Part shown: one piece after another, positions 2,989 through 6,786 of the stretch
Layout: each line of letters opens with the position of its first letter
Position numbering within the stretch: position 1 is the first letter of the stretch
Source: Ignavibacteriota bacterium
GTDB lineage: Bacteria > Bacteroidota > Ignavibacteria > UBA10030 > UBA6906
Length of the DNA: 48,035 nt
NCBI GenBank assembly: GCA_003158475.1
Contig: PMJR01000152.1
Span: 1-48,035 of the forward strand
Reading direction: 5' to 3'
Position numbers and translations under genes: made by a program
Notes under the pieces: model-generated
What the model saw: the letters and a program-made list of their open reading frames with translations, nothing else
Databases searched by the model: none
Told to the model about the DNA's origin: nothing

Positions 2989-4056
2989 TTATTCGAAGAA
3001 TCCTTTCAGAAGTTCCCACGGGTTCCTCTTTTCGCGGTGGCGGTGCTTCCATTCCAGGTATTCATCGCGCGTGATCAGGCCGACAGGCCCGTCGTAAATC
3101 CCGCCGTGGAGCCACGAATCGTAGACCCGCACGGCAAGGACATTCTCCTCTCCGAACTTCAGGAGTCCACTGGGAATGGTATAAGCGCGGAGCTGAGCGT
3201 ACTCATCCGATGTCTTGATCTTTCCGGAGTGAGTGCTCATTGATCCCGTGCGGCCGATCCTCTCGCCGTTCAGATATGTCTCATCGATATCATCGATCTT
3301 GCCGGCCAGCAGTATGAGCGTTTTCCCGTCGAAACCGGCGGAGGGGCGGAACCGATACCGGTACCATGCGAAGCCGTCATAGTCCTTCATCCCCTGTGTT
3401 TCCCAGTACAGCGGCACAACCGCGTCATTCCACGACGCATCGTCAAAGGCCGGCTCCTTCCAGTCAAAATCGTCGCCCGTTTTGATCTTCCATGTTCCAG
3501 CGAGCGACTGTCCGGGCCGCAGGGGATCTGACTGCTGGTATATCCCGATCTTCCCACCTGTGATGCCTCCCTCGCCTCCGGCATCATAGACGCGAACTGC
3601 GATGACATTGCTCGTGCCGAACCGGAGACACCACGCAGGCAGGAAATACTCTCTCGTCCAGCCGTATTCGCTGACATAGTGGGGTGGAAATTGTCCGCCG
3701 AATCCGATGAAATGCCCGTTGACATACACTTCGTCCGCGTCGTCGATTGTTCCCATGTGCAGAGTGAGGACCTTTCCCTGCCAGTCCTCTCGTGCATCAA
3801 ACTGTTTCCTGTACCACGCATAACCGTCGTAGCCGGGGTACCCTTCATCCTCCCATGGTGACGGCGCGAATATGTTGTCCCACTTGCCGTCGTTGAACGA
3901 CGGGTCGGCCCATCGTTGGTCATCACCGATTTGGAATTTCCATTTCCCACGAAGGTCCTGGATTAACTGCTGCTCCTGTGCACTGACGACCGCAGGGAGG
4001 GATGTCAGTATCGCCAGCACACAGGAACCCAACAGCAGATGTCGTACGGTGGTCAT
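2989..4056 (-). CDS. secreted protein with two glycoside-hydrolase-2-type sugar-binding domains
   Basis: The 355-residue protein starts at ATG 4056, preceded by a strong GGAGGAA. A signal peptide of about 27 residues ends in VVSA. The mature part is a duplication of about 150 residues. Each copy has the galactose-binding jelly-roll pattern of GH2 N-terminal domains: 'W.F..GDD..W..P.F.D..W', 'W.....GYDGYAWYR..F', 'GKIDDIDETYLNG..IG', 'GTSNVIAVRVYD.GG.GGI'. No catalytic GH2 barrel is present, so it looks like a stand-alone carbohydrate-binding or surface protein rather than an enzyme. A triple TGTCA direct repeat lies 68 bp upstream, matching the one upstream of the next gene. It is therefore a probable target of the neighbouring response regulator. 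Confidence 0.82.
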   Translation of the reverse strand: MTTVRHLLLGSCVLAILTSLPAVVSAQEQQLIQDLRGKWKFQIGDDQRWADPSFNDGKWDNIFAPSPWEDEGYPGYDGYAWYRKQFDAREDWQGKVLTLHMGTIDDADEVYVNGHFIGFGGQFPPHYVSEYGWTREYFLPAWCLRFGTSNVIAVRVYDAGGEGGITGGKIGIYQQSDPLRPGQSLAGTWKIKTGDDFDWKEPAFDDASWNDAVVPLYWETQGMKDYDGFAWYRYRFRPSAGFDGKTLILLAGKIDDIDETYLNGERIGRTGSMSTHSGKIKTSDEYAQLRAYTIPSGLLKFGEENVLAVRVYDSWLHGGIYDGPVGLITRDEYLEWKHRHREKRNPWELLKGFFE

Positions 4057-4124
4057 TGAAGTTCCTCCACGGAGTGTCTGTGCAGCAAATATCGTCATCA
4101 GATATGTTCCGTGCGTTTCAGACG

Positions 4125-4149
4125 TGTCAAAAATTGTCACATCTTGTCG
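4125..4149 (-). promoter_or_regulatory. putative response-regulator box A
   Basis: Three TGTCA-type pentamers (TGTCA 4125, TGTCA 4135, TGTCG 4145) repeat at exactly 10 bp, one helical turn, as expected for tandem OmpR-family binding. The box lies 68 bp upstream of ATG 4056. On the minus strand the promoter-proximal repeat reads TTGACA and could double as a -35. It is 19/25 identical to box B at 4490-4514. Confidence 0.65.
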
Positions 4150-4159
4150 CAGAGACTCG

Positions 4160-4417
4160 CTAGAACCCCCGGAGACTGTCGCCGTTATTCCCGAGGAGCG
4201 CTTTCTGGGCCCGCGCACCGATGGCATTGATCAAATCCTCATCCCATGCGTACTCTTGCCCGCTCTCGCCGGTGAAGATCGAAGGAGAATCATAGACGAG
4301 GCTGGCGAGGTAGGCCTTGTACCGTATCGCTGCCGTCTTCCCTCCTGTCGCGAGCGTCCCAAGCGACTCTCTCAGCCCTTCAAGCTGCATCGATGGGAAT
4401 GCCCATTTCATCTTCAC
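4160..4417 (-). CDS. small protein of unknown function, probable regulon member
   Basis: This is an 85-residue frame starting at GTG 4417, or ATG 4411. It has no recognised family, signal peptide or membrane segment. The sequence looks largely helical in the middle (LESLGTLATGGKTAAIRYKAYLASL-like amphipathic pattern) with an acidic stretch DED near the end. The frame is open further upstream with no good start, and no clear ribosome-binding site is visible. Support that it is real comes from its position between two response-regulator boxes: box B lies 72 bp upstream of its start, the same distance as box A from the next gene. It is the first gene after the two-component system. Confidence 0.55.
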   Translation of the reverse strand: MKMKWAFPSMQLEGLRESLGTLATGGKTAAIRYKAYLASLVYDSPSIFTGESGQEYAWDEDLINAIGARAQKALLGNNGDSLRGF

Positions 4418-4489
4418 GCTCTGGGCAATGGCGGATTCAACAACACCTTCTAGGGTTACGCCCGACGGGGGTGGAAGATGTGGGGGTTG

Positions 4490-4514
4490 CGTCAGAAATT
4501 GTCACGATTTGTCA
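4490..4514 (-). promoter_or_regulatory. putative response-regulator box B
   Basis: Pentamers CGTCA (4490), TGTCA (4500) and TGTCA (4510) have an exact 10-bp period and share the central AAATTGTCAC with box A. It lies between the regulator's stop (4542) and the 85-residue gene, 72 bp upstream of GTG 4417. Confidence 0.65.
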
Positions 4515-4541
4515 CGGAGGGGGGCGGAGGGGAAAACCCCA

Positions 4542-5222
4542 TCAAATCATGAGCTTGTATCCTGTCCCGTGTATCGTCACGATGTACCTCGGGTTCGACG
4601 GGTCCCCTTCGATTTTTTGTCGGAGCTTCAATATGAAATTATCGACGGTCCGCGTACTCACTGATTCGTCGTAACCCCAGACATTGGTCAGGAGCTGGTC
4701 CCTGCTGACGGTGCGGTTGCGGTGCTCCCAGAGGAATTTCAGGACTTCGAATTCCTTCGGGGTCATCGCGAGTGCGACCCCGTCCCTGGTGGCATCGTAT
4801 GAATCGAGGTCCGCTTCAAAAAACCCCAGCCGCACCCGGGAACCGGCCGCAGTTCCCCGTTCGCTCCGCCGGAGGACTGCCTTGACACGTGCCAGAAGTT
4901 CTCGCAGACTGAAGGGTTTCGTCATATAATCGTCGGCACCCAGCTCCAGGCCGAGGACCCTGTCGATCTCCTCCCCTTTTGCTGTGAGCATGATGACCGG
5001 TGTCAGGACCCCTTTCTCACGGGCTCTTCTCAGGACATCGAATCCGGACAGCCCGGGGAGCATGACATCGAGGATGACGCAATCGAACGCATTGTCGATC
5101 CAGGCCTGGAGTCCGGCCGTGCCGTTCCCCTCGGTCCGCACCTTGTACCCTTCGAACTCGAGGTTGTCCCTGAGCCCGGTCTGCATTTTTGGATCGTCTT
5201 CAATGATGAGTATTGTGCTCAT
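4542..5222 (-). CDS. OmpR/PhoB-family response regulator
   Basis: The 226-residue protein has an N-terminal receiver (about 1-118) with acidic pair E8-D9-D10, phospho-acceptor D52 (VILDVMLP), switch T80 and K102 (MTKPF). A C-terminal winged-helix DNA-binding domain follows (about 130-226, ending in 'YDESVSTRTVDNFILKLRQKIEGDP...YIVTIHGTGYKL'). It overlaps the kinase gene by 23 bp, so the two are translated together. The triple TGTCA repeats with 10-bp period upstream of both following genes are the natural candidates for its binding sites. All catalytic residues are intact. Confidence 0.95.
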   Translation of the reverse strand: MSTILIIEDDPKMQTGLRDNLEFEGYKVRTEGNGTAGLQAWIDNAFDCVILDVMLPGLSGFDVLRRAREKGVLTPVIMLTAKGEEIDRVLGLELGADDYMTKPFSLRELLARVKAVLRRSERGTAAGSRVRLGFFEADLDSYDATRDGVALAMTPKEFEVLKFLWEHRNRTVSRDQLLTNVWGYDESVSTRTVDNFILKLRQKIEGDPSNPRYIVTIHGTGYKLMI

Positions 5223-6786
5223 AACGGAATGCGAGTGTGAATGTGCTTCCCCTGCCGGGCGTGCTACTCAGGTCGATCCGGCCACCGTGGGCCTCCATGA
5301 TATGCCGCGCGATGGCAAGGCCGAGCCCGCTCCCCTTCGCGCCGGAGGTTTTCGAGGAAGGAACCCTGAAGAACGTTTCGAAAACCCGTTCGCGGTATTC
5401 GGGAGGAATTCCCGGACCGTGGTCTTCTATCTCCACATAGACGTCGTCCATACGGATCCCCGTTGCCACGCGCAGATATTTCTCACCTCCGCTGTATTTT
5501 ACCGCGTTGTCGAGTATGTTGATGAGCGCCTCCTGAACCGCCTCCATATCCGCACGGACTGCCGGAATCGCGGAATCGAGATCCACGATCGGGGAAAAAC
5601 CTTCGCTGCCCAGGTGCGGCGAGAATGAATCAAGCACACCACGGACAACCGCATTCAGATCAAGCGGGAGGAACGTGTACGGTCTGCGCCCCGCCTCCAT
5701 CCGGGAGAAATTCAGGAGGTTATTGACGAGACGGCTGAGGCGTTCCGTCTCCCTGACGATGGTGCTGTAGTACTCCTGTTTCTTCTCCTCCCCCACGAGT
5801 CGCCCCAATTCCAATGTCTCCGCATACATCCGGATGAGGGCCAGGGGGGTCCGGAGATCATGAGAGACATTCGATACGAAGTCCGATTTCAGGCGAACGA
5901 ATTCCATTTCCCTCCGCACGCTCCTGAAGACGACCCAGACCCCGGAGAGAAGCACGGCATCCAGAACGACGAGTATCATAATGTCGCGCGAGACGCGGGA
6001 CCGCGCAACCTGCTGGATCGTTTCCCCCTTCAGCCTGATCCCGACCGCAAGATCGGGGAAGAGCCAGAGCTGCCGCCGCTGCTCGGGATCGGCGCCCGGT
6101 CCCTCCTCGCTCGCAAACACGCGATCCCCGTTCGACGTCCGGAACACGGAGATGACGAATTCGCCGGCGGCAGCCTCCCGCATCCGTTCGCCGAGGACCT
6201 CCCGGACGAACCGTTCCTGGTGCAGCCTGATCCCGGCCAGGACGGGAATGCCGCGGATATCGCGCATGACGAACAGAAGAACCACCCCGCCCCCCGGACC
6301 GGAAGAATCCGGAAACGTGCGCGACTCGATCTTCCGGTAGTTCCGACTGCTGAGCATGAGCAAACGGTCGATGAGCGGCCTCTCCCCCGCGAGAAGAAGG
6401 GCCAGGCGCACGTGTGCGGGCTTCTCGTCCGCGCCTCTTCCCGCCATGAATGTGATCTCCGTCCCGGTTGAATCAGCGGTGAACACCGCATCGATCGCCT
6501 GATTCTTCCCCAGGAACTCCCGCGCGAACACGGGGGAGAACGAACCCCCGGCCTCCGCCGGCTTCCATCCGTTCTCCACCGCACCCGCCCAGGTGTTCGC
6601 CACGTCCCACGCAAACTGGTTGATGGAGAACAGTACGATGTCGAGCTGCCGGCGGTAAATATCCGTGACAAACGATTCGCTCCCGCTGAGCCCGCTGATC
6701 TCGTAGACGGTGAACACGAGCAGGGGGAGCAGAACGAGCAGCAGGAGAATGAGCGCGACGCCGCGGATTGTCCGGGGCTTTTTCAC
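5200..6786 (-). CDS. membrane sensor histidine kinase
   Basis: The 528-residue protein has a first membrane helix (about 9-28), then a periplasmic sensor region of about 235 residues with no recognised domain. A second helix (about 268-288) joins the kinase core without an obvious HAMP domain. The phospho-acceptor is H309 in 'VSNVSHDLRTPLALI'. The ATPase domain has an N box (ALINILDNAVKYS), G1 (EDHGPGIP), F box (ETFFRV) and G2 (SGLGLAIARHIMEAHGG). It partners the overlapping response regulator. The start is GTG 6786 with no clear ribosome-binding site. The signal sensed is unknown; the co-regulated secreted carbohydrate-binding protein suggests an envelope or surface role. Confidence 0.93.
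   Translation of the reverse strand: MKKPRTIRGVALILLLLVLLPLLVFTVYEISGLSGSESFVTDIYRRQLDIVLFSINQFAWDVANTWAGAVENGWKPAEAGGSFSPVFAREFLGKNQAIDAVFTADSTGTEITFMAGRGADEKPAHVRLALLLAGERPLIDRLLMLSSRNYRKIESRTFPDSSGPGGGVVLLFVMRDIRGIPVLAGIRLHQERFVREVLGERMREAAAGEFVISVFRTSNGDRVFASEEGPGADPEQRRQLWLFPDLAVGIRLKGETIQQVARSRVSRDIMILVVLDAVLLSGVWVVFRSVRREMEFVRLKSDFVSNVSHDLRTPLALIRMYAETLELGRLVGEEKKQEYYSTIVRETERLSRLVNNLLNFSRMEAGRRPYTFLPLDLNAVVRGVLDSFSPHLGSEGFSPIVDLDSAIPAVRADMEAVQEALINILDNAVKYSGGEKYLRVATGIRMDDVYVEIEDHGPGIPPEYRERVFETFFRVPSSKTSGAKGSGLGLAIARHIMEAHGGRIDLSSTPGRGSTFTLAFRYEHNTHH

Follow-up and report, generated by a model that had tools for sequence, protein, structure and literature searches.

Do two matched repeat boxes that follow a kinase/OmpR-type regulator gene pair in an Ignavibacteriota genome belong to a dedicated regulon, and which proteins would such a regulon make? 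The question is raised by a contig of 48,035 nucleotides (hereafter the window), for which the original prediction had proposed that triple direct repeats tie the two-component system to a small protein and to a secreted sugar-binding protein. On the minus strand, the genes and boxes follow each other in the order kinase, OmpR-type regulator, box 2, short ORF, box 1 and GH2-type gene. A tRNA-Thr (CGT) gene is found on the same strand at the contig start (40-112).

The sensor histidine kinase (5200-6786, minus strand) features an extracytoplasmic region, approximately residues 30-260, followed by HisKA (Pfam, 2.5e-20) and HATPase_c (Pfam, 1.3e-28) domains. The proposed box binder (4542-5222, minus strand), encoded directly upstream of the boxes as the prediction had it, combines a Response_reg receiver with a winged-helix Trans_reg_C DNA-binding domain, all four Pfam matches being above their cut-offs. 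The system is therefore of the OmpR/PhoB type, a known kind, while its outputs are undescribed; the open-licence papers that we searched contained no description of the cassette or of its motif.

Box 1 (4125-4149, minus strand; TGTCAAAAATTGTCACATCTTGTCG) precedes the GH2-type gene and reads CGACA-AGATG-TGACA-ATTTT-TGACA on the gene strand, with an equivalent box in the congeneric locus L070 and in others. Box 2 (4490-4514, minus strand; CGTCAGAAATTGTCACGATTTGTCA), at a position kept in relatives, precedes the small-protein gene and reads TGACA-AATCG-TGACA-ATTTC-TGACG. Both had been described as three TGTCA-type pentamers with a 10-bp period, 19/25 identical to each other and lying 68 and 72 bp upstream of the ORF starts at 4056 and 4417 (minus strand), and the sequence agrees on each of these points; the boxes read best on the gene (minus) strand, as TGACA repeats. 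Each departs by one mismatch from TGACA-N5-TGACA-N5-TGACA, and a scan of the whole 3.7-Mb genome, a check suggested with the prediction, returned these two boxes as the sole sites with 0-1 mismatches. They are also the only sites in the window with up to 3 mismatches, a limit at which shuffling gives a mean of 0.83 sites for the same 48 kb. The loose pattern is thus unremarkable in the window alone, so that we rejected its count there as proof, and the case for the boxes rests on comparison. That chance expectation is what speaks for mere accidental repeats, but the sequence and position of the boxes are conserved in dozens of genomes from several phyla, which makes such an accident next to impossible; judging from these comparisons, neither box is a product of chance.

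Among Ignavibacteria, the conserved order is kinase, regulator, box, small protein, in some cases a further box, and tandem GH2-type protein. The same gene order and boxes were recovered in relatives, and also in other phyla, so that the test proposed against the prediction, a loss of the boxes from syntenic relatives, did not refute it. A search for the GH2 tandem, covering 84,980 species with one genome apiece, identified relatives in Ignavibacteria, Bacteroidales, Cytophagales, Rhodothermales (Roseithermus), Calditrichota, KSB1 and others, and these loci often include kinase, regulator and boxes; phage families gave no match. Several Bacteroidales display the order box-GH2-GH2-kinase-regulator, under which the circuit would be autoregulatory. 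Of the 71 named-genome loci whose upstream sequence is long enough, 52 have a box at most 750 bp before the GH2 gene, for a shuffled expectation of 0.0. Conversely, 12 of 46 regulator-linked GH2 loci of named genomes have no 1-mismatch box within that distance, and in some of these the locus does have a box, but placed at a small-protein gene. A box for each of the two genes, as originally pictured, is not the general rule: the second box, before the GH2 gene, occurs in a subset of relatives only. In the others no box separates the small-protein gene from the GH2 gene after it, which suggests a single transcript.

The comparison of 87 aligned box regions, 65 of which align without gaps over 65 columns, revealed a longer layout. 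Half-sites TKACA stand at offsets 0, 10 and 20 and are followed, 11-12 bp further on, by a fourth, GACA(TCT), with its T at offset 31, at approximately -33; CGTAnnnT (also CGTAnnTT) or TAnnTT occupies 54-61, at approximately -7. Three 10-bp repeats plus a fourth at 87 sites constitute the tandem direct-repeat operator typical of OmpR/PhoB-type systems. In the window, the fourth half-site is clear at box 2, where the alignment places it at 4476-4482 (minus strand; CACATCT, consensus GACATCT) near -33, and degenerate at box 1. The -7-like elements, also located by alignment with other promoters, lie on the minus strand at 4452-4460 for the small-protein promoter (CGTAACCCT; consensus CGTAnnnT / TAnnTTTG) and at 4086-4093 for that of the GH2-type gene (GATATTTG). 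On this alignment, each box is seen as part of a longer fixed promoter with a -7-like element.

Two other readings of this promoter have to be weighed. The GACATCT/CGTA pair could be the promoter of an extracytoplasmic-function (ECF) sigma factor, with the upstream repeats as a secondary activator site. CGTA often serves as the -10 element in ECF promoters, and C54 and G55 are well kept at small-protein promoters. The GH2 promoters, above all those of Bacteroidales, nevertheless have TAnnTT(TG), the Bacteroidetes primary-sigma consensus, and the conserved cassette includes no sigma gene, so that an ECF promoter appears very unlikely. The reported consensus of the Bacteroides primary sigma factor is TAnnTTTG at -7 and TTTG near -33 (PMC7366714), which is why the fourth half-site falls near -33. 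PhoB is known to contact sigma (PMC4168254), and the geometry would be that expected if an OmpR/PhoB-type activator replaces the -33 element. Alternatively, the regulator might repress, covering the -33 region and blocking RNA polymerase until a signal frees the promoter; the fourth half-site does overlap that region, and sites of the WalR/VicR type can mediate either effect (PMC4168254). Against this, three half-sites stand upstream of the core promoter, which suggests an activator-dependent promoter, and the fourth half-site is all that can be recognised as a -33 element. Repression is thus unlikely, and we infer activation.

The extent of the regulon was explored with a 65-bp, sequence-only promoter model derived from 65 sites in relatives, the window being left out. 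Genome scans scored the best 150 first-look candidates, so that weaker sites may be missed. Among these candidates, the genome of the window itself contains exactly two matches at E<=10, with 34.8 and 20.0 bits, located at 4456-4516 (E 5.5e-8) and 4103-4148 (E 0.0026). The 20 relatives have few strong sites each among their best 150 candidates, and by neighbourhood comparison those above 20 bits are at small-protein or GH2 genes; one strong site with exceptional placement (G117:C75) lies at the end of a contig, a short way downstream of the regulator. In 15 relatives that possess neither gene type, the model reached a maximum of 17.1 bits. Three weak matches were discarded, two with no box within 2 mismatches (G029:C6:202249 and G108:C14) and one with a box at 2 mismatches (G024:C49).

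Ten genomes of other groups likewise have few model sites each, and three strong sites away from GH2 genes precede small exported proteins, two of which recognisably belong to HEAT-like families; the third (L258) bears a resemblance that is visible by eye only. In a Marinilabiliaceae locus (L253, ~1596-1990), the box precedes a different, unrelated-looking exported protein of ~131 amino acids, followed by GH2, at the position of the HEAT-like protein. As far as promoter sequence can indicate, the regulon appears to comprise hardly any genes other than those of the small-protein and GH2 types.

Which protein binds the boxes? One clear orthologue of the regulator, scoring at least 296 bits, is present in 42 of 121 genomes, the next matches reaching at most 231 bits, and all 42 genomes also encode the GH2 tandem (Fisher's exact test, 2e-27, uncorrected for kinship; neither the co-occurrence nor the gene order is phylogenetically independent). 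Its recognition-helix motif, RT[VI]DNF, is nearly invariant among 65 cassette regulators. Given the single orthologue, the complete co-occurrence and this motif, the adjacent regulator stands well ahead of any other candidate. Five more genomes have the GH2 gene with no recognised intact regulator orthologue: in G004 and G016 the regulator runs into a contig edge or is broken, the GH2 gene is near a contig start in one (G058), and both the regulator orthologue and the sites are absent from the last two (G103 and G113).

A different regulator, either an OmpR paralogue or a global factor, could bind the boxes instead, the adjacent two-component system being merely a linked co-target. Such a binder would account for the box found in 18 of 25 GH2 loci with no regulator in the fetched stretch, most of which are cut by contig ends or by the 5-kb flanks. 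It fits poorly with the single sharp orthologue per genome and its constant association with the GH2 gene, with the lack of sites in the two genomes that have GH2 but no regulator, and with the lack of strong sites at other genes among the best 150 candidates of the scanned Ignavibacteria, and we regard it as distinctly unlikely. The boxes are thus quite probably, on sequence grounds, operators of the adjacent OmpR/PhoB-type regulator in activator-dependent promoters, and the two outputs a closed two-protein regulon. The original regulon idea is strongly supported, order and boxes being conserved, the targets nearly all of two gene types and the regulator orthologue accompanied by the GH2 gene in all of its 42 genomes.

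The regulator is distinct from PhoB and from WalR/YycF. Like Pho boxes, the cassette boxes are tandem direct repeats with a TGTCA core, in an activator-type position beside the core promoter, but the core of Pho boxes has the opposite orientation relative to the gene, and PhoB targets are phosphate genes, which the cassette targets are not. The PhoB consensus is CTGTCATAWAWCTGTCACA, with an 11-bp period (PMC4168254) as opposed to 10 bp here, and the regulator obtained 198.8 bits against the PhoB model TIGR02154, below the cut-off of 296.2; the score and the period led us to reject an assignment to PhoB. Its best NCBIfam score, 206.5 bits, was obtained with WalR/YycF (WalRK, VicRK; NF040534), again below the cut-off (340). 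Direct repeats with 5-bp spacers are common to both, but WalR half-sites are TGTWAH-N5-TGTWAH (PMC4168254) whereas the cassette has TKACA-N5 repeats, and this difference, together with the score, led to the rejection of WalR/YycF. The cassette regulon also comprises few genes, none of them recognisably a cell-wall hydrolase.

No Pfam family matched the extracytoplasmic region of the kinase. Its AlphaFold2 model (pLDDT 85) has KinD (Z 12.1, rmsd 5.2 over 195 residues) and LuxQ (Z 11.5, rmsd 3.7 over 186 residues) among the top structural matches, both comparisons being made with the predicted model only, and the sensor is accordingly predicted to be double-Cache-like. PDB sequence searches with profiles of the sensor and of the small protein returned nothing useful.

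The first output differs from what had been proposed. The supposed undescribed protein of 85 residues (ORF 4160-4417) did not withstand comparison with its homologues, which have ~140-155 residues and apparent signal peptides and match it in their C-terminal part only. We therefore rejected it as an independent protein: it is the C-terminal piece of a signal-peptide protein of ~150 residues, encoded by the 5'-truncated remnant (4160-4447, minus strand) of a gene for a small exported protein of predicted HEAT-like fold. The conserved GVVES lies 67 bp from the box start in the window versus 298 bp in the congener L069; therefore, 231 bp are missing just after the -7 element in this assembly, and with them the leader, the start codon, the signal peptide and the first helix. 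An intact copy, which might have pointed to a misassembly, was sought in the same genome and none was found; the genome does encode a distant exported paralogue with no box (L246, contig C145:25180-25491). Box-free paralogues were also observed in relatives (L075, L077, L080, L101 and L106).

Should the deletion be genuine, the GH2-type protein would probably be the one output still intact in this genome. Between the GH2-type gene and a PAP2 gene (2810-2988), the window has no M13-family peptidase gene, of which the congeners L069 and L070 have one (~2 kb) directly after the GH2-type gene; none was found elsewhere in the genome. The absent M13 gene and the truncated small-protein gene together suggest local gene loss or assembly trouble. 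For the small protein, AlphaFold2 predicts a six-helix HEAT-like fold (pLDDT 79.5), similar to HEAT and armadillo solenoids (Z 8-10), and Foldseek gave no match at E<=0.001 for this model. The Pfam HEAT profile did not match the Ignavibacteria branch, while a distant branch occupying the same cassette position scored 35.7 bits with HEAT_2 (cut-off 27.7).

The second output is an exported tandem GH2-type jelly-roll protein of 355 amino acids (2989-4056, minus strand; Pfam Glyco_hydro_2_N 1.3e-10, BetaGal_ABD2 5.8e-10), for which PF02837 gives 41.9 bits against a cut-off of 28. Its predicted non-catalytic architecture was upheld: two jelly-roll repeats of sugar-binding type, both kept in 20 relatives, fill the 355 residues, with no match to the catalytic TIM barrel of GH2 glycoside hydrolases. 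The protein resembles the N-terminal sugar-binding domain of GH2 enzymes and the sandwich domain of sialate O-acetylesterase (PDB 7kmm, E 7.9e-26) but, unlike these enzymes, consists of two domain copies without a catalytic domain. The same domain occurs in one copy each in several kinds of longer, enzyme-like exported proteins of relatives (L221-L228), which suggests a carbohydrate-binding role for the tandem protein. The two exported proteins are likely to be a carbohydrate-binding surface or periplasmic pair.

In the activator model that we favour, the sensor kinase, with its predicted double-Cache-like region, would detect an extracytoplasmic cue and phosphorylate the regulator. The latter would bind head-to-tail to three TKACA half-sites one helical turn apart and to a fourth replacing the -33 element, and would recruit RNA polymerase to the TAnnTTTG-like -7 element. 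A few promoters would thereby yield the small HEAT-like helical protein and the tandem GH2-type jelly-roll protein. By analogy, one or both might further act as accessory sensor parts that bind the kinase, as LuxP and CpxP do. The cassette would then be a multi-component sensor complete in itself, for a surface carbohydrate or the state of the envelope; we offer this only tentatively. As in LuxPQ, the apparently double-Cache-like sensor is encoded beside exported proteins, and CpxP, a small helical protein that is exported, likewise belongs to the regulon of its own system, but the cassette has no LuxP or CpxP homologue. If the accessory-sensor reading is true, a minimal closed regulon would have been kept across Bacteroidota, Ignavibacteria, Calditrichota and KSB1.

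Judged by computation, the OmpR-type regulon is real, dedicated and widespread and has two exported proteins as its output, and the recurrence of its sites in several phyla, almost only before two kinds of exported-protein genes, points to a small, ancient, dedicated control circuit. Regulon predictions from a single genome are seldom so clean, with one layout in several phyla and almost only two exported families. What looked like an 85-residue orphan turns out to belong, in truncated form, to a conserved family of exported proteins, and the box marks this small-protein family even where sequence searches are weak (L251, L257 and L258). The box also offers biochemistry a ready operator and an entry to the signalling of poorly studied lineages.
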